A stretch of 26,692 bases of DNA from Acidobacteriota bacterium (GTDB lineage Bacteria > Acidobacteriota > Terriglobia > Terriglobales > Acidobacteriaceae): the NCBI GenBank assembly GCA_021841795.1, contig JAKCDN010000003.1:1-26692 (forward strand). The letters are read 5' to 3'. The position numbers and the translations under genes are program-made. Below the pieces are notes generated by a model, which saw only the letters and a program-made list of their open reading frames with translations, made no database searches and was not told the DNA's origin. Shown here piece by piece: positions 5,426 to 20,278 of the stretch. The stretch's first letter is position 1. Each line of letters begins with the position of its first letter.

Positions 5426-5562
5426 GATAATTTACGCCCTCTTCACCAGCCATCTGCCGCCCGGCGCGCCGCACCGGTCCGTACCCTCAGTCTGCGCGGC
5501 GCGCGGCGGGCAGGTCAAGAATCACTCCCCCGCTGCTCCGGCCGCCACTCGTCCCCAGCCGG

Positions 5563-5568
5563 TATTCT
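5563..5568 (+). promoter_or_regulatory. Candidate -10 box giving a leaderless transcript for the thioesterase
   Basis: TATTCT ends 6 bases before the ATG at 5575. That is the usual distance to the transcription start, and no ribosome-binding site is present. The -35 region is not recognisable. Confidence 0.3.
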
Positions 5569-5574
5569 GAAGCC

Positions 5575-6018
5575 ATGACACTCAACCCGGACCAGTCGCT
5601 TACACCCTTTGCCCATGCGGCGGGCAACCGCTGCTTCGGCTGCGGAGACGCGAACCCATCGGGCATGCGCCTGGAGTTCCTCCTGGCCCAGGACGGCTCC
5701 ATCGTCAGCCTCCCGTCCGTAGCGGAACGCTTTGAAGGCCGTCCCGGATTTCTCCACGGCGGCATCATCGCCACACTCCTCGACGAGGCCATGAGCAAGG
5801 CCGTCCGGGCCCTCGGACGCACATCGGTCACCCGCAAGATGGAAGTCGACTATCTGCGTCCCGTGCCCAGCGCCACCCCGCTCCGCCTTGAAGGCCGCGT
5901 GGTCCGCAGCGAAGAGCGAAAGCATTGGGCCGAGGCGGTCATCCTGGACGCCCAGGGTCAGGCCCTGGCGCGCGCGCAGGCCCTGTTCCTCGAGTTTCAG
6001 CTCCAGGCCGGCAGATAG
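5575..6018 (+). CDS. PaaI-family hotdog-fold acyl-CoA thioesterase
   Basis: A 147-residue single hotdog-domain protein. The N-terminus carries CFGCGDANPSGM (20-31), a motif common in this branch of PaaI-like thioesterases. The core motif is FLHGGIIATLLDEAM (60-73), where the HGG turn and the acidic residues Asp70 and Glu71 on the long helix form the catalytic site. TRKMEVDYLRPV follows as the central strand. Such enzymes hydrolyse acyl-CoA thioesters, often aryl- or short-chain forms; the substrate cannot be read from sequence. It is convergent with flgE, with a 50-base gap, and has no linked metabolic genes. A promoter-like TATTCT directly before the ATG suggests it is expressed alone. Confidence 0.8.
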   Translation: MTLNPDQSLTPFAHAAGNRCFGCGDANPSGMRLEFLLAQDGSIVSLPSVAERFEGRPGFLHGGIIATLLDEAMSKAVRALGRTSVTRKMEVDYLRPVPSATPLRLEGRVVRSEERKHWAEAVILDAQGQALARAQALFLEFQLQAGR

Positions 6019-6068
6019 GGCGGCCGCATCGCGCAGCCCTGCAGCATCCGCCTGCGCCTGAAACCGGC

Positions 6069-7373
6069 TCAATGCACCATGTTGATCGTGTCCTGGGTGA
6101 CGGTATCAAACGTCGTCACCGACTTGGCATTGGCCTCAAACGCCCGCTGCGCCACAATCAGATTCGAGAACTCCGTCGAGATGTTGACATTCGAAGCTTC
6201 AAGCGCCTGATCCTGCACCGTTGCCAGCCCCGCCGCACCCGAGGTGCCGATCACCGCCGCGCCGCTGGCCAGGGTGGTGGCGTAGTTGTCGCTCCCCAGC
6301 AACGACAGCCCCTGCAGATTGGCAATGTTCGCCAGCGCCAGTTGCCCTACATTCTGTTGCTGTCCGTTCGAGTAGGTCACCGTAACCGTCCCGTCGGAGC
6401 CGATGGCAAAGCTCTGATATTGCCCGCTCGGATATCCATTCTGCGCGGTCGCCGATACCGCCGAGGTGGTGTCCACCTGGCTGATCGTCGGCGTTCCCGC
6501 CGAGCTGAGCAGATTCCACTGCAGGTTCATTCCCGCAGCCCCGTCCGCCAGCGCCGAGCCCGCGGGCGTAAAATTCAGCGCCATCGAGGAAACGTCTCCC
6601 GTCGCCGTGCCCACGGTTTCGGCCGTGCCGCCCGTGGGCGTAATGCCGGTCAGCGCGCCGCTGGAGTTGAACTGCATGGTGCCCGTGATCGCCGCCGGAA
6701 CCGCGTTCCCCCCGGAGGTCGAGTAGTCGGCCGCCGGCAGCGCCACCGAGTAGCTCCAGGTGTTCGTCCCCGTCTGCTGGTATGTCACGGTGGCGACGTG
6801 GGACTGTCCCAGCGAGTCGTACACCGTTATCTCGGCGGGAAACTGCGTCGCGGCGCCCGAGGCCGAGTCCAGGTTCGTGGTCATGCTCATCGTCGTGCTC
6901 GCCTGCGGCTGCTGCACCGCCCCCACCGGAATGTTGATCGCCGTCAGCGGAGCATTGGTATTCACTACTCCGTTCACTGCCGGGTAGCCCATCACATTCA
7001 TGCCGCTCGAGGTCAGCAGCTCGCCCGTGGAACCGAGCGTGAAGTTGCCCGCGCGCGTGTACTCGTAGCTGCCCGTGCCGTCGCCCAGAACAAAGAACCC
7101 GTTCCCGTTCAAGGCCACGTCGGTCGAGTTTCCCGTGGCGTTGATCGAGCCCTGCGTAAAATCCGTCTCATTCGACGCCGCGCGCACTCCGGCTCCCACC
7201 TGGATCGGATCACCGGAGCCCGTGGTGCCGATCTGCTGGTAAAACAGATCGGCAAAGTTGGTTGTCTGCGACTTGTACGCCGTGGTGTTCATGTTGGAAA
7301 GGTCGTTCGCAATCGTGTTCAAGGCGGTCGAATCGGCCTCGAGCCCGGTCAGCGGAATGGAAAAACTGGCCAT
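6069..7373 (-). CDS. flgE: Flagellar hook protein FlgE
   Basis: A 434-residue hook subunit. Its N-terminal rod/hook helix contains the family motif NTIANDLSNMNTTAYKSQ, followed by the FlgE-type F(A)DLFYQQIG segment and the NGNGFFVLGDG and YTRAGNF strands. The middle part is Ser/Thr/Gly-rich variable hook domain. The C-terminus ends in the D0 helix LEASNVNISTEFSNLIVAQRAFEANAKS, present in all rod-hook-axial proteins. Several thousand-subunit assembly of FlgE forms the universal joint between the rod and filament. AGGAGGAG lies 6 bases before the ATG, the strongest ribosome site in the cluster, as expected for an abundant structural protein. It is the last gene of the block; the next gene is convergent and not flagellar. 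No clear terminator follows. Confidence 0.95.
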   Translation of the reverse strand: MASFSIPLTGLEADSTALNTIANDLSNMNTTAYKSQTTNFADLFYQQIGTTGSGDPIQVGAGVRAASNETDFTQGSINATGNSTDVALNGNGFFVLGDGTGSYEYTRAGNFTLGSTGELLTSSGMNVMGYPAVNGVVNTNAPLTAINIPVGAVQQPQASTTMSMTTNLDSASGAATQFPAEITVYDSLGQSHVATVTYQQTGTNTWSYSVALPAADYSTSGGNAVPAAITGTMQFNSSGALTGITPTGGTAETVGTATGDVSSMALNFTPAGSALADGAAGMNLQWNLLSSAGTPTISQVDTTSAVSATAQNGYPSGQYQSFAIGSDGTVTVTYSNGQQQNVGQLALANIANLQGLSLLGSDNYATTLASGAAVIGTSGAAGLATVQDQALEASNVNISTEFSNLIVAQRAFEANAKSVTTFDTVTQDTINMVH

Positions 7374-7488: not shown

Positions 7489-8034
7489 TCAGGAACGGCC
7501 GGCCAGCGCATGCGCAACCTGTTCGGCCGCCGGGCTGGCCTCCGGGATGCCGAGGTTGCCCGCACTGCGCGGTATCGTCCGGGCCTGCGCTGCGGGCAGC
7601 GCCGCGCCCGGTGAAGCGGAGTGCGAAGCCAGGCTCCGCGCTCCCGTGGTTAACGTTCCGCCCGCGGCCGGCGCCGGCGTGGTCACGCCCGCGGCCGGCG
7701 TCGATGTCCCGCTCCCAGAAGCGCTCGACGACGAGCCCAGATCCGTCGTCAGCGTCTGATTGATCGTGATCAGCTGCTCCAGGCTGTTCACCTCCACCAG
7801 CTGATTGATGTACTCGTTCGGATCGGTGGTCGATGTCGGATCCTGATTCTGCATCTCCGTCACCAGCAGGGTGAGAAAGTCGTTGGCGGAGATCGTGGTT
7901 GAATCGCTGCTCGAACTGGCGGCTCCCGTGCCGCTGCCGCCGGATGTTGAGCTGGCCATCGCTGCAGCCTTCTTGCCCGCGATCGCCTCGCTGGCGGCCG
8001 CCCGCTCATTGCGGAGGAACTCGACTGTTGCCAT
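7489..8034 (-). CDS. flgD: Flagellar hook cap/assembly protein FlgD, short form
   Basis: A 181-residue protein with the FlgD core at about 49-95: ISANDFLTLLVTEMQNQDP, then PNEYINQLVEVNSLEQL. This is the conserved 'FL-x-LL-x-x-Q(M/L)QNQDP ... QL-x-x-x-x-x-LEQ' block. FlgD caps the growing hook and lets FlgE subunits insert. The usual C-terminal Ig-like/Tudor-type domains are not seen: after residue 100 the chain is Ser/Ala/Pro-rich and low in complexity. The core-only form occurs in other bacteria and does not by itself mean loss of function. It lies 33 bases after fliK and 115 bases before flgE, consistent with a fliK-flgD-flgE hook unit. Confidence 0.88.
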   Translation of the reverse strand: MATVEFLRNERAAASEAIAGKKAAAMASSTSGGSGTGAASSSSDSTTISANDFLTLLVTEMQNQDPTSTTDPNEYINQLVEVNSLEQLITINQTLTTDLGSSSSASGSGTSTPAAGVTTPAPAAGGTLTTGARSLASHSASPGAALPAAQARTIPRSAGNLGIPEASPAAEQVAHALAGRS

Positions 8035-8067: not shown

Positions 8068-9861
8068 TCATGCCATCACCGAGATCCGCGTGCCCCGCTG
8101 ATCCGTTGAAGATCGCGGACCGACCGGGATGCCGCTCCCGGCTGCCGCCGCCGCTCGCGCCCTGCCGGACGGCGGCGTCGCGCCCCCCGTACCGGCCTGC
8201 GGCCTGGGCTGCGCGCTGCCTTCCGAACTGCCCTCCCGGTTCTGCTGCATCGCCTCGCCGTATCCCTGCGCCAGTCCCGCGTGAGCCGGCGTCGCCAGCG
8301 ACAGCGAGGCCAGATGGGTATGCTGCTCGGCCAGATGAGCGCCAAGCCCGGCGAGATGACCGCTCAGCGCCTGCGCCGCCTCCAGCGAGCCGGGCACAAG
8401 CGAGGCGTGAATGCCGCCCGCATTCAGATCCGCGCGCACGCTCACCCAGCCCAGGGATGGATCGCGAAAACCGGCCTCGGCATGCTGCGCCGAAGCGTGC
8501 AACCACTGCGGCGCTGCGCGCGCCGTCCCGTTATCGAGCGCCGCAAAGGTCTCCTGGGCATTGGGCGCGGGATCGGCGGCGGCGTCACGCACGCGCGCTT
8601 CGGCCACGGCGATCCCCGGATGCCCGGCGTTCGCAGCCTGCATGCCCGACAGCGCGGCCGGGGATGCAGGCTGGGATGCTGAAGGCGGCGGCGAGACCAT
8701 CGTTGCCGGCCGCGCGGCCGCAGGCTTCGCGTCCTCCCGGGACAGCGCCGTCCGCTCGGGAGCAGGCCGCATCAGCGCCTCCGCGCTCTTCGCACCGCCC
8801 TGCGCGGGCCTCCCGGCGGCTGCCGGAAGCACAGGCCGCTCCACCGCCTCGCCAACAGCTTCGGCCGGGGCGAGCCCAGTCTGTGGCGGCACTGGATCGG
8901 ATGGGCGCACGCTCGCTTGCTCCTTGCCCGCTGCCCGCTCCCATCGCTCTGCAGGCTCTGCCACCGCTGCGGCCGCGTAGCCGCCATCGGCTCTGGATGC
9001 ACCGCCCAACTGCGCGGCGCCGTCGCTCGCATCTGTCGCGGAGCCGGTGACCGGCATCGCGCCCGCCGTCGGCCGCCCGCTGTCCGCGGCGGAGGCAGAA
9101 ACCGCCAGGCTCTGCCTGGCCCGCGTCCCTTGTACGCCAACTCCGTTTGCAGGCGGAGGCGGCGCTGTCACCACGGCCGCGCCCGGCGTGGGAACGCTCC
9201 CCGTCACCGCCTTCGTCTGAGGCTTCTTCGCCGCGCGATGCGCCGCTTCCGCCGCGGCCGCGCGGCGCGGCTGCGCGCTGCGGAGCGGGTCAGGCGCGGA
9301 ATCGGTTCGGCTTGCCGCCGGCGGCAGCGGAATCTTGGCCGCAGGCACGGCGTGCAGCCGCAGCGCGGCTGCCGTAGGCTCCGCCGCGCCCGGCGCATCC
9401 GCCGGCGCGCGACCGGCATCGATCTCCGCCTTGCCGCTGTCCGTGCCCGGCCCCGGATCGGGATGAGCCGCGCAGGCGCTGTTCTTGCCCGTGCTGGCAG
9501 ACGCAGGCTCGGACGCGGCCGCCGCATCCGGTCCGGCTCCGTCCAGATTCGTTCTGTCCAGATCCGTTCGGTTCAGGTCCGTCCCGTTCAGATCCATTCT
9601 GCCCCGGTTCATTCCGTTCTGGTCCATTCCGGCTCCATCTCCGGCTGCGCGGGCCTCCGGCCATCCGCTCACAACCGACTGCAGGCTGGAGCGAAAGCTC
9701 GGCGGGCCCGAGGCCGTCTCCGCCGCGCCGATCCCCTGTGTCTGCCCCGGCTCCGTTCCGCCGGCACGCCCATACAGGGCATCCGCCGCGCCGGCCTGCC
9801 CCGGCCCGCTCCAGCCGACGGCTTGTGTCTCCGCGCTCAGGTTGGCAACGGCAGCGTTCAT
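8068..9861 (-). CDS. fliK: Flagellar hook-length control protein FliK
   Basis: A 597-residue protein, mostly Ala/Pro/Gly-rich low-complexity sequence, as is typical for the FliK ruler region. The conserved C-terminal switch domain is at about 465-525: DPSLGWVSVRADLNAGGIHASL, then LSGHLAGLGAHLAEQ, matching the 'P-xx-LG-x-(V/I)-x-V ... L-xx-L-xx-L' FliK pattern. FliK measures the hook and switches export specificity from hook to filament proteins through FlhB. Residues 79-108 consist of six five-residue units (DLNR/TDLD type) encoded by a DNA minisatellite. The ATG at 9861 has no ribosome site; a sigma-54-type promoter 13 bases upstream would make an almost leaderless message. The call rests on the C-terminal domain plus position between fliJ and flgD. 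Confidence 0.83.
   Translation of the reverse strand: MNAAVANLSAETQAVGWSGPGQAGAADALYGRAGGTEPGQTQGIGAAETASGPPSFRSSLQSVVSGWPEARAAGDGAGMDQNGMNRGRMDLNGTDLNRTDLDRTNLDGAGPDAAAASEPASASTGKNSACAAHPDPGPGTDSGKAEIDAGRAPADAPGAAEPTAAALRLHAVPAAKIPLPPAASRTDSAPDPLRSAQPRRAAAAEAAHRAAKKPQTKAVTGSVPTPGAAVVTAPPPPANGVGVQGTRARQSLAVSASAADSGRPTAGAMPVTGSATDASDGAAQLGGASRADGGYAAAAVAEPAERWERAAGKEQASVRPSDPVPPQTGLAPAEAVGEAVERPVLPAAAGRPAQGGAKSAEALMRPAPERTALSREDAKPAAARPATMVSPPPSASQPASPAALSGMQAANAGHPGIAVAEARVRDAAADPAPNAQETFAALDNGTARAAPQWLHASAQHAEAGFRDPSLGWVSVRADLNAGGIHASLVPGSLEAAQALSGHLAGLGAHLAEQHTHLASLSLATPAHAGLAQGYGEAMQQNREGSSEGSAQPRPQAGTGGATPPSGRARAAAAAGSGIPVGPRSSTDQRGTRISVMA
9541..9630. repeat. 15-bp minisatellite within fliK, six copies
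   Basis: Six tandem 15-base units, plus strand: GTCCAGATTCGTTCT, GTCCAGATCCGTTCG, GTTCAGGTCCGTCCC, GTTCAGATCCATTCT, GCCCCGGTTCATTCC, GTTCTGGTCCATTCC. On the coding strand they give five-residue units of the type (M/T)(D/N)L(N/D)(G/R), reading MDLNG, TDLNR, TDLDR, TNLDG. The period is a multiple of three, so gain or loss of units would keep frame. Confidence 0.9.
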
Positions 9862-9873
9862 GCGCAGTGCAGG

Positions 9874-9890
9874 TGCAGATGGCGTGCCAA
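9874..9890 (-). promoter_or_regulatory. Sigma-54 (-24/-12) promoter before fliK-flgD-flgE
   Basis: On the minus strand: TTGGCACG-CCAT-CTGCA. This matches the RpoN consensus TGGCACG-N4-TTGCW at every position of the -24 element and all but one base of the -12 element, with the invariant GG and GC exactly 10 bases apart. It lies in the 155-base gap between fliJ and fliK. The predicted transcription start is about 9863, two bases before the fliK ATG. The window also encodes a sigma-54 activator at the head of the same cluster. Confidence 0.65.
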
Positions 9891-10016
9891 TGGGCCGCGG
9901 GAAGGGTTGGAAAATGTCAACGATGGCGGGACGGCCCGTTCTGCGTTCCTCCGCGCGGGCCGGATGCGGCGGCGTTGGCGGTCATCTCCCCGTTGCCCGC
10001 GCGGCATCCGGGCGCA

Positions 10017-10490
10017 TCACGAGCGCCGGCCGCCATCCCGGGAGCCAGGCTCATCCCCCGGCGCGCCGCGCCAGCCAAGGAACCAGTCGTCGAGATCGCG
10101 CTGCGTCCTTCGTTCCGCCTCCACTCTCGCCCGTGCGCCGGCCTCGTCGATCAGGGTCTGGGTCTGGCGGCGTTCGATGCGCCGGCGCAGAAACTCGCGG
10201 CGGACCGACTCCAGCATGCTCTCCGCCTGGGCGATGCGCTCGGCCACAACGGCGCTGTGCCGCCTGGCCAGGCGGGACTCTTCCAGACCTGCGATGCGCT
10301 GGCTCAGCTCGCCGCTCGCCACGCCCGCCCTGACCGATTCGCGGCCGTCCCGCTCCCGCTCCCCGTCCCGCGCCATCGACGCCCCCAGTTGCCGGATCTC
10401 GGCGCGAACCGACTCCATCGCCGCCCGGCTCCGCTCTTCCTGCATCTCCAGCACCTGCGCCAGGCGCCGCATGGCCCGCGATACGGACAT
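10017..10490 (-). CDS. fliJ: FliJ-like flagellar export chaperone
   Basis: A 157-residue, Arg/Glu/Ala-rich protein predicted to be a long two-stranded coiled coil (about residues 5-135), with a loose 'L-x-L-x-x-x-x-E' heptad pattern: RRLAQVLEMQEERSRAAM and later VAERIAQAESMLESV. The C-terminal part has the FliJ-like R-x-x-x-(D/E)-(D/E)-W motif, here RRTQRDLDDWFLGW. FliJ sits in the centre of the FliI hexamer and links it to FlhA during export. Sequence conservation in this family is low, so the assignment relies on coiled-coil character, length and position: only 3 bases after fliI and before fliK, the usual fliI-fliJ-fliK order. The tail (GAPGDEPGSRDGGRRS) is probably disordered. Confidence 0.75.
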   Translation of the reverse strand: MSVSRAMRRLAQVLEMQEERSRAAMESVRAEIRQLGASMARDGERERDGRESVRAGVASGELSQRIAGLEESRLARRHSAVVAERIAQAESMLESVRREFLRRRIERRQTQTLIDEAGARARVEAERRTQRDLDDWFLGWRGAPGDEPGSRDGGRRS

Positions 10491-10493
10491 CGG

Positions 10494-11798
10494 TCAAACC
10501 TCCGCCGCCAGCGTCTCCAGCCGGCCCACAGAATCGGCGAACTGCACCCGCTCGATCGAGGATTGGGTGAGAAAGCTCCGCATCAGGCTGCGGGCGCGCA
10601 GGGCGCGGTCGAGGTCGGCATCGCCCCCGGGCTTGTACGCCCCGATGCGCACGAGATCCTCGTTGCGGCTGTACACGGCCAGCAGCTTGCGCACCAGAGC
10701 TCCCTGCTCGCGATGCCGCGGCGTCGCCACGGCCGGCATCAGGCGGCTGATCGAGTCCAGAATCTGGATGGGCGGATACCAGCCTTCGGCCGCCAGTCCT
10801 CGCGCCAATACGATGTGACCGTCCAGCAGCGAGCGCACCGCGTCCACCAGCGGGTCCTGCTGGTCGTCGCCCTCCATCAGCACCGTATAAAACGCCGTGA
10901 TCGAACCCCGGCGGAAGCTGCCCGAACGCTCCACAAGCCGCGCCAGCCGCGTAAAAACCGAGGGAGTATAGCCCTTGGCCGTGGGCGGCTCTCCCGCCGC
11001 CAGGCCGATCTCGCGCGCCGCCATGGCGAAGCGGGTGAGCGAGTCCAGCACCAGCAGCACGTGCTTGCCCTCGGCGGCAAAAGACTCGGCCAGCGTGGTC
11101 GCGGCCAGCGCGGCGCGCATGCGCAACAGCGGCGACTGGTCGGAGGTGGAGACCACCACCACCGCCCGCGCCAGTCCCTCCGCGCCCAGCGAGTCGCGCA
11201 GAAACTCTCCCACCTCGCGGCCGCGCTCCCCGACCAGGCCCACGATCGTCACCTCGGCCTCGGTGTTGCGCGTCATCATCCCGATCAACGTGCTTTTGCC
11301 CACCCCTGAACCGCCGAAGATGCCCACACGCTGCCCTCTGCCCACGGTCAGCAAGGCATCGATGGCGCGGATTCCGGTCCCGATCGGCTCCGTGATGGCC
11401 ACCCGCTCCAGCGGCTGGCGCACCTTCCCGTCCAAGGGCAGCGCCGCCTCCACCGCCGGCGCGCCGCCGCCATCGATCGGCCTCCCTTCGGCATCGAGCA
11501 CGCGCCCCATCAGCGCCGGTCCCACCTCGATCTCCGGCGTGCCGCCCAGGGCCCAGACCGGATCGCCAAAGCGAATCCCCTCCGTCGTCTCCACCGGCAT
11601 CGACAGAACATTCGATCCCCTGAAGCCGACAACCTCGGCCGCATGCATGCGCCCGGCGCGGTCCTCGATCTGGCAACACTCGCCCACTGAGACCGGAGGC
11701 CCCGACGATTCGACGGTCTGACTCATCGATTCGATGACGCGGCCCCGCCAGCGCCAGGGCTGACGCTGCCGCAGCCGGGAGAAGTAGCGCTCCAGCAT
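10494..11798 (-). CDS. fliI: Flagellum-specific ATP synthase/export ATPase FliI
   Basis: A 434-residue F1-beta-like ATPase. Walker A is GGSGVGKST (162-170), the catalytic Glu191 lies in VGERGREV, and Walker B is HVLLVLDSLTRFA (Asp252). The SLLDGHIVLAR and TQSSIERVQFADSV segments are typical of FliI/SctN type III secretion ATPases. Within this gene neighbourhood FliI is the clear choice. It energises delivery of export substrates with FliH and FliJ. I choose ATG 11798: the upstream ATG at 11858 lies inside fliH and would add a Gly/Arg-rich tail not seen in the family, while GGGGGTG precedes 11798 and the gap to the fliH stop is then 5 bases. Translational coupling with fliH is likely. Confidence 0.95.
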   Translation of the reverse strand: MLERYFSRLRQRQPWRWRGRVIESMSQTVESSGPPVSVGECCQIEDRAGRMHAAEVVGFRGSNVLSMPVETTEGIRFGDPVWALGGTPEIEVGPALMGRVLDAEGRPIDGGGAPAVEAALPLDGKVRQPLERVAITEPIGTGIRAIDALLTVGRGQRVGIFGGSGVGKSTLIGMMTRNTEAEVTIVGLVGERGREVGEFLRDSLGAEGLARAVVVVSTSDQSPLLRMRAALAATTLAESFAAEGKHVLLVLDSLTRFAMAAREIGLAAGEPPTAKGYTPSVFTRLARLVERSGSFRRGSITAFYTVLMEGDDQQDPLVDAVRSLLDGHIVLARGLAAEGWYPPIQILDSISRLMPAVATPRHREQGALVRKLLAVYSRNEDLVRIGAYKPGGDADLDRALRARSLMRSFLTQSSIERVQFADSVGRLETLAAEV

Positions 11799-11803
11799 CG
11801 CGG

Positions 11804-12592
11804 TTACACCCCCGCCTCGGCCGCCTGCGCCTCGGCTCCCGTTGCAGCCTCGCCGCAACCGGCCGCAGAGCCGGCGCGGTCAAAGAAGCCGCGCTCGATC
11901 TCGCTCAGTTGCGCGCGAACTCCGAGATCGACGCTGCCAACCTCGCTTTCGATGGCGCAGTCCCCCAGCGCCATCCCCGCGTCCGCCACCACCTGCGGCC
12001 TTACGCCCAGATTCGGCAGCAGGGCCATCGTCTCCTGCCACAACTCCGCCTCGCCGGCCGGAACCCTCAGCCGGACCTCGGTAGCGCTGGCCAGTTGCCC
12101 CAGCGCCACCCGCACGGCGCCGGTCAGCAGAAGCGGGTCCATCTGCGCCTCGCGCCGCAGAATGCGCGCCGCCACCGCAAGCGCCAAACGCACCACCTCC
12201 TGCTCGATCTGGCCGAGAAACCGATCGCGGTCGCAGGCCAGACCCGCGGCCAGTTCAGCCGCCTGACGGCGTCCGCGCTCGGCAGCGGCCGTTGCCGTCG
12301 CCTCGGATCCCTCCCGCTCCGCGCGCCGTCCCTCTTCGACCCCGCAGGCGCGCCCGGCCTCGAACGCGCGCCGCGACTCCTCGGCAACCCTGCGCTCCAG
12401 GGCCTCCGGATCAACGGCCCGCCCGGCGTCCGGCGGCGGGGATACCGGCTCTGCCCCCACCTCGGCCCAGCCTTCGCATTCGGCCCTGGGCGGAGCCTCG
12501 GCCGAGGCGGCGTAATCATAGAGCACCACCCGCATCCCTTCGTCCCTACCGGTCCCGGCGACCTCATCGCCGCGCATCGCCCGCTCCGCCAT
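11804..12592 (-). CDS. fliH: Flagellar assembly protein FliH
   Basis: A 262-residue stator-like regulator of FliI. Features in order are an acidic/Pro-rich N-terminal region (1-65), an Ala/Glu/Arg-rich helix with small-residue spacing (about 66-115, including EAGRACGVEEGRR, where the FliH GxxxG-type pattern is expected), then the conserved C-terminal half with QEVVRLALAVAARILRRE and LRVPAGEAELW, and the final GDCAIESEVGSVDLGVRAQLSEI. The last motif, G-(D/G)-C-x-(I/V)-E-(S/T), is characteristic of FliH/SctL. FliH dimers hold FliI and dock it at the C-ring. The start at 12592 has GGAG six bases upstream. It lies between fliG and fliI in the standard order. Confidence 0.9.
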   Translation of the reverse strand: MAERAMRGDEVAGTGRDEGMRVVLYDYAASAEAPPRAECEGWAEVGAEPVSPPPDAGRAVDPEALERRVAEESRRAFEAGRACGVEEGRRAEREGSEATATAAAERGRRQAAELAAGLACDRDRFLGQIEQEVVRLALAVAARILRREAQMDPLLLTGAVRVALGQLASATEVRLRVPAGEAELWQETMALLPNLGVRPQVVADAGMALGDCAIESEVGSVDLGVRAQLSEIERGFFDRAGSAAGCGEAATGAEAQAAEAGV

Positions 12593-12684
12593 CGCCTGCT
12601 CCGCTCCTCGCGCCTCCGCGCCCGCCCCGCAATCCTCACCCGGCCGCGCGGCGCGGCCCTTCCCTCTGCGCCGCCGCGCACGGA

Positions 12685-13773
12685 TCAGGCCATCATCTCG
12701 TCGCCGGTCTCCAGCTTCAGAACCACCTTGCCCTCGGTCTCCAGCCGCCGCGCCAGATTGAGAATCTCCTGCTGCGCCTGCGCCACCTCCCGCGACCGGA
12801 CCGGCCCCAGAACCTCCATGTCCTCTTTCAGCATCTCGACCGCCCGCGAGCTCATGGCCTTGAAGACCTGCGCGCGCAGCTCCTCGTTGGCTCCGCGCAG
12901 CGCCAGCGCCAGCTGCCGCTTGTCCACGCCGGAGACGATCTCGCGAATCGAGGCCGGCGGAACCGCGATCAGGTCCTCGAAGGTGAACATCAGATTGCGG
13001 ATGCTCAGGGCCAGCTCCGGCTGCTTCTCTTCGATGGTCTCGAGAATCTTCTTCGACTCCTCGGCGTTGAGCCGGTTCAGCAGATCGGCAACGGCCTTGA
13101 AGCCGGAGTAGCTGCGGCGCGCCGTGTCGCCCACGCTTTCCAGGCGGCGATGCAGAATCAGCGCCACTTTCTGGGCCATCTCAGGGGAAAACTGCCGCAT
13201 CTCGGCCAGCCGCTGCACCGCCAGAACCTTGTGCTCCTCGCTCAGATTGTCCAGCACCGTCGAGGCCTTGCGCGGGTCAAGATGCGCCAGCACCAGCGCG
13301 ATCGTCTGCGGGTGCTCGGAGTCGAGCAGCTTGCCCAGCTGCTGCGGGTCGGTGCGCTGCAGCTTGGCCAGATTGCCCTGCGCCGCCTCCTGCGAGCGGC
13401 GCATCATCTGCAGCAGATCGTCGGCGCGGTCCTTGCCGAAGGCATCGATCAGCAATCGGCGCGCGTAGTCCAGGCCGCCGTGCACGATGATGTGATGCGT
13501 GTCCAGAAGCTGCCAGAACTCCTCCAGAATCTCGGCCGAGAGCTCCGGCGTCACCCCGCGAAGATCCGCCAGCTCCTCCGTAAGGCGCTGCACATCGGCA
13601 TCGGGCAGCGCGCGCAGCACCTCTCGCGCCAGATCCTCGCCCACGGCCACAAGCAGGATCGCGGCCTTCCGCAGACCGGAAAGATTCGCCGCCTGACGCG
13701 GCCGCTTGGCTGCTCCGCCATCATTGCCCTGTTCCGCCAAAACCGCCCCTTCCCCTCCGCGCTCCGGCGCCAT
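12685..13773 (-). CDS. fliG: Flagellar motor switch protein FliG
   Basis: All three FliG domains are present. The N-terminal domain that binds FliF begins at LSGLRKAAILLVAVGEDLA. The middle domain carries the signature EHPQTIALVLAHL with the following F(S)PEM segment. The C-terminal domain with the charged torque helix reads DLIAVPPASIREIVSGVDKRQLALALRG and then SSRAVEMLKEDMEVLGPVR. FliG turns ion flow at the stators into rotation. The ATG at 13773 overlaps the fliF stop as TGATG and gives 362 residues. A TTG at 13740 is a serious alternative (351 residues): GGAGGGGAAGGGG lies five bases before it, whereas the ATG has only GGAG two bases away. Coupling to fliF is likely either way. Confidence 0.95.
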   Translation of the reverse strand: MAPERGGEGAVLAEQGNDGGAAKRPRQAANLSGLRKAAILLVAVGEDLAREVLRALPDADVQRLTEELADLRGVTPELSAEILEEFWQLLDTHHIIVHGGLDYARRLLIDAFGKDRADDLLQMMRRSQEAAQGNLAKLQRTDPQQLGKLLDSEHPQTIALVLAHLDPRKASTVLDNLSEEHKVLAVQRLAEMRQFSPEMAQKVALILHRRLESVGDTARRSYSGFKAVADLLNRLNAEESKKILETIEEKQPELALSIRNLMFTFEDLIAVPPASIREIVSGVDKRQLALALRGANEELRAQVFKAMSSRAVEMLKEDMEVLGPVRSREVAQAQQEILNLARRLETEGKVVLKLETGDEMMA

Positions 13774-15314
13774 CACTCCGAATGGATCCAGCTCTGCAAC
13801 AGGCGTGAGCTTTGCGCAGGTTCGCGCTTCAGCTGCGCCGACACCTGATCGAAGATCTCCTGGGCGCGCATCCGCTCCGGATCGCTCGCGCCCGTCTCCG
13901 GCGTTCCCAGCGGCATCGCGGCCGCCGCCGGCGAGAGCTCGCGCGCCCCCGCTCTTGCGCTCGCCGGCGCCGCCAGCGCCAGCCCCACATTGCGCAGCGC
14001 CGGACGCAAACCGAAGGCGATCACCACCAGCACCCCCGCCAGCACGGTCAGGTATTTCATCAGCTCCGGCGACTCCTCCACCGTCTTCACCGATTGCTCC
14101 ACCAGGCCGGCCGGCGGCTGCGGACGATTCTCGGCAAAGGCCAGATCCTGCACCGTCACCACGTCGCCGCGGGCCGCATCGAAGCCAACCGCGGCCTCGG
14201 CCAGCGCGCTCAGATTGCGCAGCTCGTCCGCCGGGCGCGCCTGCCACACCGCGGCATGCGTCTTCGTGGCGGGCTGCAGCAGGCGGTCGTTGACGACAAT
14301 CGCGGCCGTAAGCCTGCGCACCCGGCCCGGTCCGTCAACGATATGGCGCACCGATTTGGAGACTCCATAGGTCGCCGACTCGGTGGTCGCCGACTGCGGC
14401 GGAGCCGTCTCGTGCGGATACACCGGCAGCGCCTGTGTGTTGGGCGCATTCGAGGCGCTGCCCGGCACTCCCGACGGCACCGCCTGGGCGCCGGTCGACT
14501 GCTGCGTGCGCTCCAGCGTCACCGTGGCCGTTCTTGCCGGATCGTAGCTCTCGTCGGTTTCGTCCGTGGATTCGGTGTCGTAGTCCAGGGTGACCGAGGC
14601 GCGGACGTTGCCTGCGCCCGTCACCGGCTCCAGCGTCGCCACCACCTTCTCCTCGAGCGCCTGTTCGGCGCTTAGTTGCAGGGCCTCGGCGGTCCGGGGA
14701 CCAAGCGGCAGGTTGCCCGCGGCATCCACCAGCACCACATGATCCGGGCTGAGGCCGTCCACCGCCGAAGCCACCAGGTTGCGGATGGCCTCCGGCTCGC
14801 CGTCGGCAAGCGACCGGCGCCGCAATTTGAGCACCACGGCGGCCTTGGCCGGACGCTCCTGGTCGCGAAAGAGCGAATCGTGCGGAAGCACCAGATGCAC
14901 GCGCGCCGAGGCGACATCGGATAACGTCCCGATGGTGTGCTCCAGCTCGCCTTCGAGCGCGCGCTGGTAGTTCACCTGCTCGTCAAACTCCGATCCTACC
15001 CAGTTCGGCTTGTCGAAGATCTCGAAGCCCAGACGGCCGCTCTTCACCCCGCCCTTGGCCGCCACCGCAAGCCGCGCCTCGTCCGGATCCAGCCCCGCAT
15101 AGAGCGTGCGCCAGTCCGGACGCATGCCCAGCCACGCGATCCCGCCCAGCAGCGCCGCCAGCAGCAGCGCCGCCGTCATCGCCCAGCCGCGCTGCCGGGG
15201 CGTCATCGCCGCCCAGCGCAGGCGCACCCGGCCCCACAATCCCGCCCACCGGCCGCCCGCGTCGAGTTGCCCCAGCGGCGCCGGAGCCTTTTCCATCTGT
15301 GTCCCCGTGGCCAT
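13773..15314 (-). CDS. fliF: Flagellar MS-ring protein FliF, shortened in ring-building domain 1
   Basis: A 513-residue MS-ring protein. The first membrane segment is at about 44-63. It is followed by DWRTLYAGLDPDEA (67-80) and then, abruptly, RLAVAAKGGVKSGRLGFEIFD. Normally about 33 more residues (helix, strand and VP-x-x-x-V) separate these two motifs, so most of ring-building motif 1 seems missing. RBM2 is intact (VNYQRALEGELEHTI, SARVHLVLPH), as is the beta-collar region with its Pro/Gly/Ser loop (VPGSASNAPN). The second membrane segment is at about 420-437, and the FliG-binding tail ends LLQSWIHSE. The ring houses the export gate and carries the rotor. ATG 15314 is used; ATG 15296, with GGGGA upstream, is also possible. 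Confidence 0.93.
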   Translation of the reverse strand: MATGTQMEKAPAPLGQLDAGGRWAGLWGRVRLRWAAMTPRQRGWAMTAALLLAALLGGIAWLGMRPDWRTLYAGLDPDEARLAVAAKGGVKSGRLGFEIFDKPNWVGSEFDEQVNYQRALEGELEHTIGTLSDVASARVHLVLPHDSLFRDQERPAKAAVVLKLRRRSLADGEPEAIRNLVASAVDGLSPDHVVLVDAAGNLPLGPRTAEALQLSAEQALEEKVVATLEPVTGAGNVRASVTLDYDTESTDETDESYDPARTATVTLERTQQSTGAQAVPSGVPGSASNAPNTQALPVYPHETAPPQSATTESATYGVSKSVRHIVDGPGRVRRLTAAIVVNDRLLQPATKTHAAVWQARPADELRNLSALAEAAVGFDAARGDVVTVQDLAFAENRPQPPAGLVEQSVKTVEESPELMKYLTVLAGVLVVIAFGLRPALRNVGLALAAPASARAGARELSPAAAAMPLGTPETGASDPERMRAQEIFDQVSAQLKREPAQSSRLLQSWIHSE

Positions 15315-15424
15315 GTCTGCTCAGTCTTGCTCTCCGCGCTCCATCGCGGCTCGCTCTGCCGGCGCCGCCGGCCCAACGCCATCCGCCCGGACCCAGTGCC
15401 CGCCGCTTCCAGCCGCAGCCGGGG

Positions 15425-15742
15425 TCAGAACTGCATTCCCATCACGCTCTGGTACGCCTGAACCGCCTTGTTGCGCACCGCCAGCGCCAGCTCGAAGGCC
15501 ATATCCGCCTTCTCGGTGGCGATCATCGCCTGGTGAACATCCACGCCGCTGCCCGTCATCAGTCCGGTCACCGCGCTCTCGGCCTGCTGGTCCAGTTGCT
15601 TCACCTGGCCCGCGGCGTCCGCCATCAGATCCGCAAAGGGCGCGGCAGGCGCACCCGTCTTCATCCCGGTTGCGGCCGCGCCCGATGCGCCGGCGGTCGA
15701 GGCCCCGGCGGCCGAGGCGACGGAATTGATTGCTGCCAGCAT
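15425..15742 (-). CDS. fliE: Flagellar hook-basal body junction protein FliE
   Basis: A 105-residue protein. After an Ala/Ser/Gly-rich N-terminus (MLAAINSVASAAG) it has the FliE pattern F-x-x-(L/M)-x-x-A(A)GQVKQLDQQAE, a 'GSGVDVHQAMIATEKADMAFELALAVRNKAVQAYQ' helix pair and the ending SVMGMQF. The motif D-(V/L)-H-x-(V/A)-M-(I/L)-A-x-(E/Q)-(K)-A-x-(M/L) is diagnostic. FliE forms the first rod layer that joins the MS-ring to FlgB and FlgC. I start at ATG 15742 because GGGAGGG precedes it and the length then matches the family; an upstream ATG at 15826 would add 28 Arg/Pro-rich residues. It lies between flgC and fliF. Confidence 0.92.
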   Translation of the reverse strand: MLAAINSVASAAGASTAGASGAAATGMKTGAPAAPFADLMADAAGQVKQLDQQAESAVTGLMTGSGVDVHQAMIATEKADMAFELALAVRNKAVQAYQSVMGMQF

Positions 15743-16836: not shown

Positions 16837-18108
16837 TCAGTTCACCGTCAGCCCGAAGTCGATCTCGCGCGAGCTCAGAACCGGGCTGTCCCCGGCCAGG
16901 ATCACGCCCCGTTCGAGCACATGCTCGAGCTCGCGTACGTTTCCCGGCCAAGGATGAGCCGTCAGCTTGTTCAGGGCGGCCTCGTCGAGCCGCTTCACCG
17001 GAATGTCGCGGCCCAGCCGTTCCAGAAAGTGCTCCACCAGCAGCGGCAGATCCTGGGCGTGCTCGCACAGGGCCGGGGTGCGGATGAGAAACACCGCCAG
17101 GCGGTAGTAAAGGTCGGAGCGGAAGCTGCCGTTCTGGGCGTGCTCGGCCAGCGGGCGGTGGGTCGCGGCCAGGATGCGCACATCCACCTTCACCGTCTCA
17201 TTGTCGCCAACCCGCTGCAGTTCGCCGCACTCGACGAAGCGCAGAAGCTTGGCCTGCAGGGCCAGCGGCATCTCGCCGATCTCATCGAGAAACAGCGTGC
17301 CGCCGTCGGCGGCCTCGATGCGCCCCACGCGGCCCTGCACCGCGCCCGTAAAGGCGCCGCGGGTATGGCCAAAGAGCTCCGCCTCCAGCAGGGCTTCGGG
17401 AATGGCCGCGCAGTTGATCGCAACCAGCGGCTTGCGGCTGCGGGTCGAGAGCCGATGCAGAGCCTCGGCCACCAGCTCCTTGCCCGAACCGGTGGGCCCT
17501 TCGATCAGCACCGGAGTAGTGCGCGGCGCCACCAGCCGGATGCGGCGGCTCACCTCCATCATGCACGGAGCGTTGCCGATCAGCTCGGGCAGGCGCTCGG
17601 CGGTCCGGTTCATCCCCGCCTCCGGAGCCGGGGATGGAATCGGCGCGGGCCAACGGACGGCGTCCCTTCCCGATGCCGTCCGGCCCTCCGCGCCGATGGC
17701 CGCCGGCAGCAAAGGAGCGGCGACAGCCGCACTCCAGGCCGCCGTGTCCGTCTCCTCGCAGGAGCGCAGCGCGTAGAGCAGCTCCTGACGATAGGGCCCG
17801 CGCCGGCTTTCCTGCGCGATCTGGCCCGATGCGGTCACAAGATCCACCTCGGGAAAACGCGCCTTGAAGTCGTTCAGGAACTCGTTGAGGTCAAGATCCG
17901 GCAGCCATGAGCCCAGAATCACCGCGTCGGGCAAAGCCGCCTCGGCTTCGCTCCACGCCTGGGCGCCGCCTTCGGCCTCCAGCACCTGCCAGCGCAGGCC
18001 CGCAAGCACCGCCGCAAGTCGTTGCCGGAAGCTGCGGTCGGCGCTGACTACAACCACCGTGCGCGGTCTTGCGCGCAGGGTCACGGGAAGAACGGGAATC
18101 ACTTGCAT
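16837..18108 (-). CDS. Sigma-54-dependent flagellar activator lacking a DNA-binding domain (FlgR-like)
   Basis: A 423-residue enhancer-binding-protein relative. Residues 17-115 resemble a receiver domain (VVVVSADRSFRQRL, later DAVILGSWLPDLDLNEFL), but the phosphoacceptor position is Gly66, so it is probably not phosphorylated. The AAA+ domain (about 172-410) is complete: Walker A GPTGSGKE with Lys210, GAFTGA at 251-256 for sigma-54 contact, Walker B TLFLDE with Asp275 and Glu276, and sensor II PWPGNVREL with Arg402. The chain stops 19 residues after this region (REIDFGLTVN), so the Fis-type helix-turn-helix is absent. The 79 bases downstream encode no lost domain. It probably activates RpoN promoters from solution; the site before fliK is the best target here. 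AAGGAG precedes the ATG. Confidence 0.88.
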   Translation of the reverse strand: MQVIPVLPVTLRARPRTVVVVSADRSFRQRLAAVLAGLRWQVLEAEGGAQAWSEAEAALPDAVILGSWLPDLDLNEFLNDFKARFPEVDLVTASGQIAQESRRGPYRQELLYALRSCEETDTAAWSAAVAAPLLPAAIGAEGRTASGRDAVRWPAPIPSPAPEAGMNRTAERLPELIGNAPCMMEVSRRIRLVAPRTTPVLIEGPTGSGKELVAEALHRLSTRSRKPLVAINCAAIPEALLEAELFGHTRGAFTGAVQGRVGRIEAADGGTLFLDEIGEMPLALQAKLLRFVECGELQRVGDNETVKVDVRILAATHRPLAEHAQNGSFRSDLYYRLAVFLIRTPALCEHAQDLPLLVEHFLERLGRDIPVKRLDEAALNKLTAHPWPGNVRELEHVLERGVILAGDSPVLSSREIDFGLTVN

Positions 18109-18161: not shown

Positions 18162-18911
18162 CTACGACAGCGGCGCCGCCGGTGAGGGCAGGACCGCGCC
18201 TTTGGCCACGGGAAGAGCCGAAGCCGCATCCCCGGCCAGCTCCGCCTCAGACGGAATCATGTAGCCCCGTCCGCGCACGGTCCGGATCAGGCGGCCCGGC
18301 GGCGGGTCCATCAGCTTGCGGCGCAGATAGTTCACATACACATCGACGATGTTGGTCGTCTGCGCCTGCTCCAGATTCCAGATGGAATCCAGCAGATCGA
18401 CGCGGGTGACGCACTGGCCGCGATGCAGCAGCAGGCTCTCCAGCAGGGCGAACTCCTTGTTGGTCAGCGCGATGGGACGGCCCGCCCGCTGGGCCGTATG
18501 GTCCAGGCGGTCGAGTTCAAGATCGCCGGCCCGCAGCCGCAGGCGGGCCTCGCGCTTGCGCCGCAGCAGCGCCCGGCAGCGCGCGCGCAGCTCATGCAGG
18601 CTGAAGGGCTTGGTCATCAGATCGTCGGCGCCGCGATCCAGGCAGCGCACGCGCGCGTCCACCTCCTGTCGGCCCGTCAGCACCAGCACCGGCAGCTCGG
18701 TGTCGATGGCGCGCACCTCTTCGAGCACCTGTTCCCCGTCCTTCACGGGCATGTTCAGATCCAGGATGGTCAGGTCCGGCGGCTCGGCGCGGAACGCCTC
18801 CACAGCGGCCGCGCCATCGTGGGCCAGAAGCACGCGATGGCCGTCGGCCTCAAGCCCCCGGCTCAAAAACGCGCTCAACGATCGGTCGTCCTCGGCAATC
18901 AGTAGCCTCAT
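18162..18911 (-). CDS. OmpR/PhoB-family response regulator
   Basis: A 249-residue two-component regulator. The receiver domain (1-118) is complete: acidic pocket Glu7, Asp8 and Asp9 in IAEDDR, phosphoacceptor Asp51 in LTILDLNMPVKDG, Thr79 in VLVLTGR and Lys101 in LMTKPFS. The winged-helix DNA-binding domain (about 127-226) includes LTNKEFALLESLL, VDVYVNYLRRKL and the wing IRTVRGRGYMI. A tail of about 23 Ala/Pro-rich residues follows. No histidine kinase is encoded in the window. I start at ATG 18911: GGAGAGG lies six bases upstream, and the protein then begins MRLLIAEDD as the family does. The activator gene follows 53 bases downstream, so both may share one transcript. A 17-bp triple repeat lies just before it. 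Confidence 0.92.
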   Translation of the reverse strand: MRLLIAEDDRSLSAFLSRGLEADGHRVLLAHDGAAAVEAFRAEPPDLTILDLNMPVKDGEQVLEEVRAIDTELPVLVLTGRQEVDARVRCLDRGADDLMTKPFSLHELRARCRALLRRKREARLRLRAGDLELDRLDHTAQRAGRPIALTNKEFALLESLLLHRGQCVTRVDLLDSIWNLEQAQTTNIVDVYVNYLRRKLMDPPPGRLIRTVRGRGYMIPSEAELAGDAASALPVAKGAVLPSPAAPLS

Positions 18912-18988: not shown

Positions 18989-19143
18989 GATCCGATGCCG
19001 GTTCCACGCCGCTCTCCGTCTTCCCGCCGGCCCGATTGTGCGAGCGGAAGATGGCACTCCTCCACCTTGGGGTATGGGGAAAAGGAACTCAACGGTTGCA
19101 TGAGGAAAAATCAAGGAGGAATGTTGCATCGGGAGTAAAAATG

Positions 19144-19222: not shown

Positions 19223-20278
19223 TCAGCCATGCCGGGCGCGCGCGGCGGCCTTCTCCGCGTACATGGCCGCGTCGGCCCGCGCCAGAAGCTCGTTCATCGT
19301 CTCGGCTCCCGTGCGCGCCGCCAGCCCGATGGAAGCATCGACATGAACCTTCAGCATTCCCCGCTGCGTGCTCAGGCTGTACAGGCCGCAGGCCCAGTTG
19401 CGCAGGCGCTCCACCTGCACCCGCGCCTCCTCGAGCCCAGCGTCGAACAGCAGCAGGAACTCATCGCCGCCCCAGCGCCCCACCACGTCCGTGGACCGGC
19501 AGGCGGAGCTCAACTCGCCCGCAAACTGCCGGAGCAGCGCATCGCCCGTCAGGTGGCCGTGCCGGTCGTTAATCTCCTTGAAGCGGTCGATATCGACGAT
19601 CGCCGCGCAGAAGCCCGCGCCGGCCTCGATCCGCTTCTGCATCTGCGCCTCCAGAAAGACCCGATTGCGCACTCCCGTCAGCACATCCCGCGACGCCAGC
19701 AGCTCGGCCTCTTCCAGCTTGGCCTGGTACTCGTTCAGCTTGGATTCAAGCCCGTGCAGCACCTCCTTGCCTTCGGCCGCCATGCGATCGATGGAGGCGC
19801 GCAGTTCCGCCGCGCTCTTGTCGATCGAAGCCCGGATCTCGCTCAGATCGTCCAGGGTCGCGATCGCCTTCAGCCGCTCCGTCACCGCGCTCAACCGCTC
19901 CGCGCTGTTCGCATCATGCGTGCTCACCGATTCGGCCGTACGCGCCACCGTCAGCAGAATCTCCTTCACCTCGCGCGCCTTGTCCTGATAGTGCCGCGCC
20001 ACCTCATGGCCCCATCCGCGCACGCGATCTCCCGCCCGTCTCCCGTGGGCCAGCAGATTCGCGCAACCCATCCCCGGCAGCAGCTCGGCTTCGAGCTCGC
20101 TCAGCTCCCGCTTCAGCCCTCCGCCCAGCCCGGGACACGCATCCAGGCTGCCGTCGCCGATCGCGCGCAGCGTCGCACCGTACGCCTCCAGCGCCGCCGC
20201 AACAGGATCCCCCGCCGCCGCGCTCCCCGCAACCGGCGCGGCCGCATTGGAGTCAAGATATTTCTTGAGCGAAATCAT
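19223..20278 (-). CDS. Soluble GGDEF-domain diguanylate cyclase
   Basis: A 351-residue protein with no membrane segment. The N-terminal 190 residues are helical, including a long stretch with heptad character (about 90-190) likely to form a dimer-making coiled coil; I recognise no sensor domain. The C-terminal GGDEF domain has DVLTGVRNR (198-206), the metal-binding Asp229 in IVDIDRFKEIND, the signature GGDEF at 270-274, and the allosteric I-site RSTD (261-264) five residues before it. It should therefore make c-di-GMP from two GTP and be inhibited by its product. It is divergent from the second cyclase and lies upstream of the flagellar regulators on the same strand, suggesting control of the motile-sessile switch. 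The ribosome site at its ATG is weak. Confidence 0.92.
   Translation of the reverse strand: MISLKKYLDSNAAAPVAGSAAAGDPVAAALEAYGATLRAIGDGSLDACPGLGGGLKRELSELEAELLPGMGCANLLAHGRRAGDRVRGWGHEVARHYQDKAREVKEILLTVARTAESVSTHDANSAERLSAVTERLKAIATLDDLSEIRASIDKSAAELRASIDRMAAEGKEVLHGLESKLNEYQAKLEEAELLASRDVLTGVRNRVFLEAQMQKRIEAGAGFCAAIVDIDRFKEINDRHGHLTGDALLRQFAGELSSACRSTDVVGRWGGDEFLLLFDAGLEEARVQVERLRNWACGLYSLSTQRGMLKVHVDASIGLAARTGAETMNELLARADAAMYAEKAAARARHG

Follow-up and report, generated by a model that had tools for sequence, protein, structure and literature searches.

Knowledge of flagellar sigma-54 tiers comes chiefly from Proteobacteria and Campylobacterota, and CtrA, one of the regulators concerned, belongs to the OmpR family. 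The flagellar hierarchy of Caulobacter uses CtrA and FlbD, with CtrA on top, early genes that include the sigma-54 activator FlbD, and hook genes that are expressed later, according to the accessible text of a review (PMC3930126). The same text describes the FlgS/FlgR-RpoN system of Helicobacter pylori, in which FlgR lacks a DNA-binding domain and need not bind DNA to activate the middle flagellar genes, among them FliK. FleT of Rhodobacter (Cereibacter) sphaeroides also lacks a DNA-binding domain and works through FleQ, in the accessible part of PMC11999139, and activators without this domain are listed as a type in the accessible part of PMC3162934. The string "Acidobacteri-" does not occur in the review PMC3930126. 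A literature query on sigma-54 or RpoN, Acidobacteria, and flagellar genes, which covered titles, the beginnings of abstracts, and few subscription papers, returned no description of such a system, and nothing was found when Terriglobus was included in the same query.

The window analyzed here is the whole 26,692-nucleotide stretch of DNA from an Acidobacteriaceae genome bin of 2.85 Mb in 380 contigs (∼71% complete, with contamination of 2.08%), and its nearest named relatives by FliI were Acidobacteria and Acidobacteriaceae bins, Terracidiphilus included. On the minus strand, genes were found in the order OmpR-type regulator, NtrC-type activator, flgB, flgC, fliE, fliF, fliG, fliH, fliI, fliJ, a gap, fliK, flgD, and flgE. 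A site in the gap very probably acts as a working sigma-54 promoter that starts a second tier, fliK-flgD-flgE, within this longer flagellar run, an arrangement that points to hook assembly as a second stage under separate control. The first tier would comprise the response regulator, the NtrC-type activator, flgBC, and fliE-J; a sigma-70-like promoter at 19092-19064 would read this tier and thereby make the activator, whose ATPase domain, with its GAFTGA loop, would open sigma-54 RNA polymerase at fliK. A sigma-54 hook tier is an already known kind of arrangement. What is new, as far as the literature was searched, is a family-wide activator lacking its DNA-binding domain, a fixed upstream box, near-leaderless spacing, and possibly a moving tier boundary, a pattern that yields precise testable predictions (start site, box, partner protein, and leaderless start) in a large soil family. 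The features are listed below.

19064 to 19092, minus strand: candidate early sigma-70-type promoter, TTGAGT-N17-CAAGGT (sequence; similar element in relatives)
18162 to 18911, minus strand: OmpR-type response regulator, opening the early operon (Pfam Response_reg and Trans_reg_C)
16837 to 18108, minus strand: NtrC-type sigma-54 activator, 423 residues (Pfam and translation; relatives compared)
10494 to 11858, minus strand: fliI, export ATPase (Pfam), the query used for fetching relatives
10017 to 10490, minus strand: fliJ-like gene, last of the upstream tier (identified by position and by tblastn in relatives)
9906 to 9920, minus strand: upstream box TTGACATTTTCCAAC (taken as TTGA-N6-CCAA), starting 31 nt ahead of TGG
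9874 to 9889, minus strand: predicted sigma-54 -24/-12 promoter TGGCACGCCATCTGCA (motif match, matrix score, and conservation)
9863, minus strand: predicted transcription start, 12 nt past the C of the -12 element, leaving a 2-nt leader
8068 to 9861, minus strand: fliK, hook-length control, opening the second tier (Pfam Flg_hook, 1.4e-05, under the curated cut-off)
7489 to 8034, minus strand: flgD, hook cap (Pfam FlgD)
6069 to 7373, minus strand: flgE, hook, last flagellar gene of the run (Pfam)

The identity of fliK was also indicated by its place between fliJ and flgD in relatives, and the fliJ-like gene had no match in Pfam or NCBIfam.

The minus-strand sequence from 9890 to 9874, TTGGCACGCCATCTGCA, had exact GG-N10-GC spacing and near-consensus flanks, with a single mismatch to the sigma-54 consensus used, TGGCACRN4TTGCW, as the initial annotation had proposed; the mismatch is a C in place of the first T of TTGCW. 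The site was located upstream of a gene start in a non-coding gap of 155 nt between the end of the fliJ ORF (10017) and the fliK ATG (9861), which bore out the proposed position ahead of the hook genes. The sigma-54 reading had been made to depend on rpoN, and this gene was detected in the genome together with at least one AAA+ activator. With an approximate scoring matrix, the fliK site had the top score in the window (16.3; runner-up, 12.4), and it was the only match with one mismatch or fewer in the 26.7 kb. Dinucleotide-shuffled windows contained a mean of 0.47 such matches, with at least one in 38 of 100 shuffles, so that a bare match in 26.7 kb is not significant. This frequency would fit a chance resemblance, in which the site is inert and fliK, flgD, and flgE are transcribed only by read-through from an upstream promoter; the lack of any terminator-like site in 9700-10300, and so between the tiers, would also fit.

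This alternative was weighed against the conservation of the site. The best 80 of 337 relatives by FliI were combined with the window into 81 sequences, from which one (L061) was left out because it ends too soon after fliI, and the best sigma-54 match 370 to 740 nt after fliI was scored in each of the remaining 80 (79 relatives and the window). Matches of at least 10 bits were obtained in 60 sequences, four of which are doubtful because the site lies away from the fliK start (L050, L070, L073, and L081), and matches of at least 7.5 bits were obtained in 68. In 37 of the 80, no match on either strand of the locus scored better than the post-fliI match, compared with ∼0.95 expected by chance, and in 52 it ranked among the top three. 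As the sites of relatives were chosen by best score, the complete or nearly complete invariance of GG and GC in the 60 is partly built in. The two T residues before TGG, which are outside the search matrix, were each present in 47 of 60, and in the ten columns after TGCA no base occurred in more than 31 of 60 sequences. Conservation of the site, the upstream box, and the start-codon spacing next to these variable columns counts against a chance resemblance, and we regard an inert site as highly improbable. The second transcription tier that had been suggested at fliK was instead supported by the clade-wide conservation, by rpoN, and by the separate sigma-70-like element before the first regulator gene, and its transcription as a distinct unit is what we infer from these features.

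A tree of FliI placed the window in a clade of 56 sequences with support of 98/97, the bootstrap being not fully settled. In this clade, a strong site with a start codon 11 to 13 nt downstream was present in 51 sequences and a weak one in 2 (53/56 by label). Among the others, L050 was found by eye to have an 11.3-bit site further on, followed by an ATG at 13 nt; L014 stops short of the site; and L003 has fliJ followed by unrelated genes, with neither fliK nor the site found. The fliK site was absent, by label, from 9 members of a sister clade of 10, the tenth being without data; that this clade manages without the site is a further point on the side of an inert match. At flgB, five of the eight sister-clade sequences read (L044, L051, L052, L055, and L063) had a weak -24/-12 match of 7.9 to 11.4 bits, accompanied by a Shine-Dalgarno site and a box of the TTAGA or TTAAA type, an arrangement that was not found in L058, L059, or L066. 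The 15 sequences outside both clades gave a mixed picture. The tier boundary may thus move, lying at fliK in the clade of the window and perhaps at flgB in the sister clade. In L003, a close relative, amino-acid biosynthesis-like genes on the other strand (11323-15560; named by eye) take the place of fliK-flgD-flgE.

A start codon followed TGCA closely in 56 of the 80 sequences, at 12 nt in 47, 13 nt in 6, and 11 nt in 3; it was ATG in 52 and GTG in 4, and the near-leaderless label is distrusted in two of the 56 (L067 and L070). In the cultivable relative Occallatibacter savannae AB23 (L078), the ATG follows TGCT by 12 nt. Recounting from the C of the -12 element at 9875 placed +1 at 9863, the same position that had been expected for the transcript. 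The message would then begin ∼2 nt before the ATG at 9861, and the fliK mRNA is predicted to be nearly leaderless. Alternatively, a leader exists, the ATG at 9861 is unused, and translation starts further downstream. A 2-nt leader leaves no room for a Shine-Dalgarno site before 9861, and longer leaders with Shine-Dalgarno-like motifs were present outside the clade in L042, L067, L074, L077, and L079 and, by eye, in L048; L043, which is outside both clades, has a GTG 12 nt after TGCA. This reading is improbable on two grounds: the ATG keeps a fixed distance to the promoter, and the third codon position was the most variable in 10 of the 11 codons from 2 to 12 (codon 7 was the exception), which indicates that the stretch from the fliK ATG onward is translated. 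Leaderless genes have also been predicted in the same phylum, at an average of 13.3% in three Acidobacteria genomes, as given in the accessible part of PMC3160421. The present case differs from those in that leaderlessness would come with a sigma-54 promoter at a fixed spacing, and the term "sigma54" is absent from that text. In the accessible portions of the literature on leaderless genes and sigma-54, no description of such an arrangement was found.

Upstream of the promoter, relatives have a box of the form TGAC-N6-CTAA, which a regular expression matched in 52 of the 80 sequences, at a distance to TGG of 31 nt in 34, 32 nt in 16, and another distance in 2. The window is outside these 52, as the left half of its box is off by one base of spacing and the expression misses it; its box is less canonical than those of relatives. 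The box was not part of the search matrix that had located the sites. A joint scan for the box and the -24/-12 pair over all loci (1.43 Mb, both strands) produced 54 matches in the fliJ-fliK region and 5 elsewhere; fliK boxes had served to train the box matrix, which makes the 54 partly circular but not the other 5. These five were before flgB (L042 and L060) or before a gene after flgE (L074 to L076), which is fliL-like in L074. The center of the box lies ∼50 bp upstream of the predicted start and would be the place of a possible DNA-bound helper.

The initial annotation had described the operon's own activator as sigma-54 dependent. This agreed with the protein found, which has a degenerate receiver domain and an AAA+ domain with GAFTGA and lid, after which it ends; the absence of a C-terminal DNA-binding domain is an addition to that description and sets the protein apart from the classical enhancer-dependent type. 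An AAA+ domain with GAFTGA and no C-terminal HTH is the make-up of FlgR-like activators. The protein scored 194.4 bits against the Campylobacter FlgR family NF049963 and 266.8 bits against the Caulobacter FlbD family NF050807, each with a cut-off of 750. The end without a visible HTH was shared by 63 of the 65 sequences read, the exceptions being L018, where the row is a paralogue, and L075, which is masked. Out of 7,999 homologues scored, the 120 that were listed, among them the protein of the window itself, had no HTH family in their precomputed domains, and five other full activators in the same genome (C56, C34, C330, C176, and C247) had, by eye, an HTH-like end. For a wider sample, 11 further loci were chosen among the results for 119 genomes of the phylum, and 10 gave output (L190 gave none): 8 activators ended without an HTH, 5 of them followed by a flgB-like ORF (L180 to L184), L193, from another family, ended in an HTH, and L188 was masked. 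In two family genomes, L173 (G030) and L174 (G038), a histidine kinase gene preceded by a composite promoter came after the domain-less activator; next stood an NtrC-type activator whose end is HTH-like, and basal-body genes lay beyond it.

Comparison with the described systems showed likenesses and differences. As in H. pylori, sigma-54 would serve hook genes including FliK, with an activator that has no DNA-binding domain (accessible text of PMC3930126). Unlike in H. pylori, the receiver here is degenerate (expected Asp absent by eye; Pfam score of 19.7 bits, below the cut-off of 30.2), the window ORFs submitted to Pfam included no recognized kinase, and a conserved box lies upstream at a fixed spacing. 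The likeness to Caulobacter lies in the order of regulator, early genes with the activator, and later hook genes, whereas FlbD, in the same text, binds ftr sites and the activator here has no domain for doing so. In R. sphaeroides, FleT needs a partner to switch flagellar promoter classes; that partner, FleQ, is another sigma-54 activator in the accessible part of PMC11999139, whereas the candidate partner here is the OmpR-type response regulator.

Of the 65 sequences with an identified activator, 63 also yielded the gene for this regulator. Its likely start in the window is one of two ATGs near 18911, with the ORF open to 19007, and it matched OmpR-type families of NCBIfam, those listed all being below cut-off. 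Upstream of the gene, 36 of 63 sequences had CTTGAGT, in most cases with an AAGGT-type element behind it, and the window has a variant of this promoter. A palindrome, TTAG-N6-YTAA, was detected behind the early promoter in 28 of the 63 upstream regions (∼0.011 expected per region) and lay 44 to 47 nt after CTTGAGT in 21 of the 28; it is a post hoc pattern, first spotted by eye and counted afterwards, and had 54 matches across all 1.43 Mb on both strands. It was absent from 35 of the 63 upstream regions, those of the window, L003, and L004 among them. Its format resembles that of the sigma-54 box (TNAG or TGAC, N6, CTAA), and the fliK box matrix gave a weak signal upstream of the OmpR-type gene, with only 2 of 63 at 13 bits or more. 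The regulator is an unproven candidate for binding both the sigma-54 box and the early-promoter palindrome.

Lacking a DNA-binding domain, the activator would act from solution or be aided by a helper that is bound to DNA at the box. If the promoter is real and activation is purely from solution, as with H. pylori FlgR, the box would serve a different protein, such as a repressor, a nucleoid protein, or a Fis-type activator with its gene elsewhere. We consider this a serious contender, falling just short of an even chance. It would account for the missing domain and would fit the absence of the palindrome behind the regulator promoter of the window, and in L173 and L174 the gene of the domain-less activator has a close neighbor that encodes an NtrC-type activator ending in an HTH-like region. 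The fixed distance between box and promoter argues against it, as does the near-constant presence of the OmpR-type gene beside the activator, and a complete activator alongside was noticed in L173 and L174 only, among loci that were read unsystematically. That the OmpR-type regulator is the DNA-bound helper of the activator at fliK is a guess, possible but rather doubtful. A joint reading as a split sigma-54 activator is tentative and, taken as a whole, unlikely. The regulator would bind the TNAG-N6-CTAA palindrome ∼50 bp upstream of flagellar sigma-54 promoters and recruit the NtrC-type ATPase that the next gene encodes and that no longer has a DNA-binding domain of its own. The regulator would also, in many relatives, damp its own early operon via the palindrome behind that promoter, and the fixed promoter-to-ATG spacing would make the second-tier fliK message nearly leaderless.

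The genome was scanned for further sigma-54 sites at flagellar genes, as the initial annotation had advised. The box and the -24/-12 pair, 31 nt apart, were present before both flgF copies of the same genome (contigs C198 and C151), the former with 12.2 bits and the latter reading CGGCCC at -24 and falling under the 10.5-bit listing; judged by these sites, the second tier in this genome would also take in flgF. The -24/-12 pattern by itself did not hold up: the loose form TGGCAYN5YTGCW had 6 matches in the genome compared with 9 in a reversed control and so defines no regulon there. Loose-pattern matches in four loci (L083 to L086) were set aside when their gene context was read. On contig C313 (G000; L087:1501-1516), a strong -24/-12 match, TGGCACGCAATCTGCA, was observed in an apparent gap, with no flagellar gene tied to it. 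The bin contains two different flgF-flgG pairs (G000 C198 = L128 and C151 = L127), each with the box and the -24/-12 pair, and these represent either two flagellar sets or a mixed bin.

Composite patterns of box and promoter were also counted. The first, which misses the window's own site, had 30 matches in 24 of 150 family genomes, compared with 48 in the reversed control; many of the 30 were not before flagellar genes, and their use as a regulon count was dropped. The second had 4 matches in the window's own genome, 3 of them flagellar, with 2 in the control, and 68 matches in 33 of 40 genus genomes compared with 39 in the control (counted from the table), gene context being judged on the 4 own-genome matches only. 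The fourth of these (C247) was inside an activator gene and was rejected as a flagellar site. The counts, set against their controls, make the box-promoter pair meaningful only by position. Composite matches in relatives preceded flgB, fliK, flgF-like, fliD-like, fliL-like, and fliN/FliY-like genes and a histidine kinase; having been read singly, they show where the pair occurs and not how often. The fliD-, fliL-, FliY-, and kinase-like proteins were below cut-off in NCBIfam, and the other names were assigned by eye or with tblastn. No composite was found upstream of the flagellin (C8 and C345) or fliD (C5) genes of the window's genome, and a composite before a fliD-like gene occurred in single relatives.

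Two observations concern the flanks of the flagellar run. After flgE, a minus-strand ORF of 185 amino acids (5515-6072) overlaps, in antisense, a thioesterase-like ORF of the plus strand (5575-6018; named by eye) and is probably not a gene, despite tblastn matches in relatives. At the other end, a GGDEF (diguanylate cyclase) gene at 19223-20278, in the same orientation, immediately precedes the early flagellar promoter, and this adjoining position makes a link between c-di-GMP and the flagellar operon possible.
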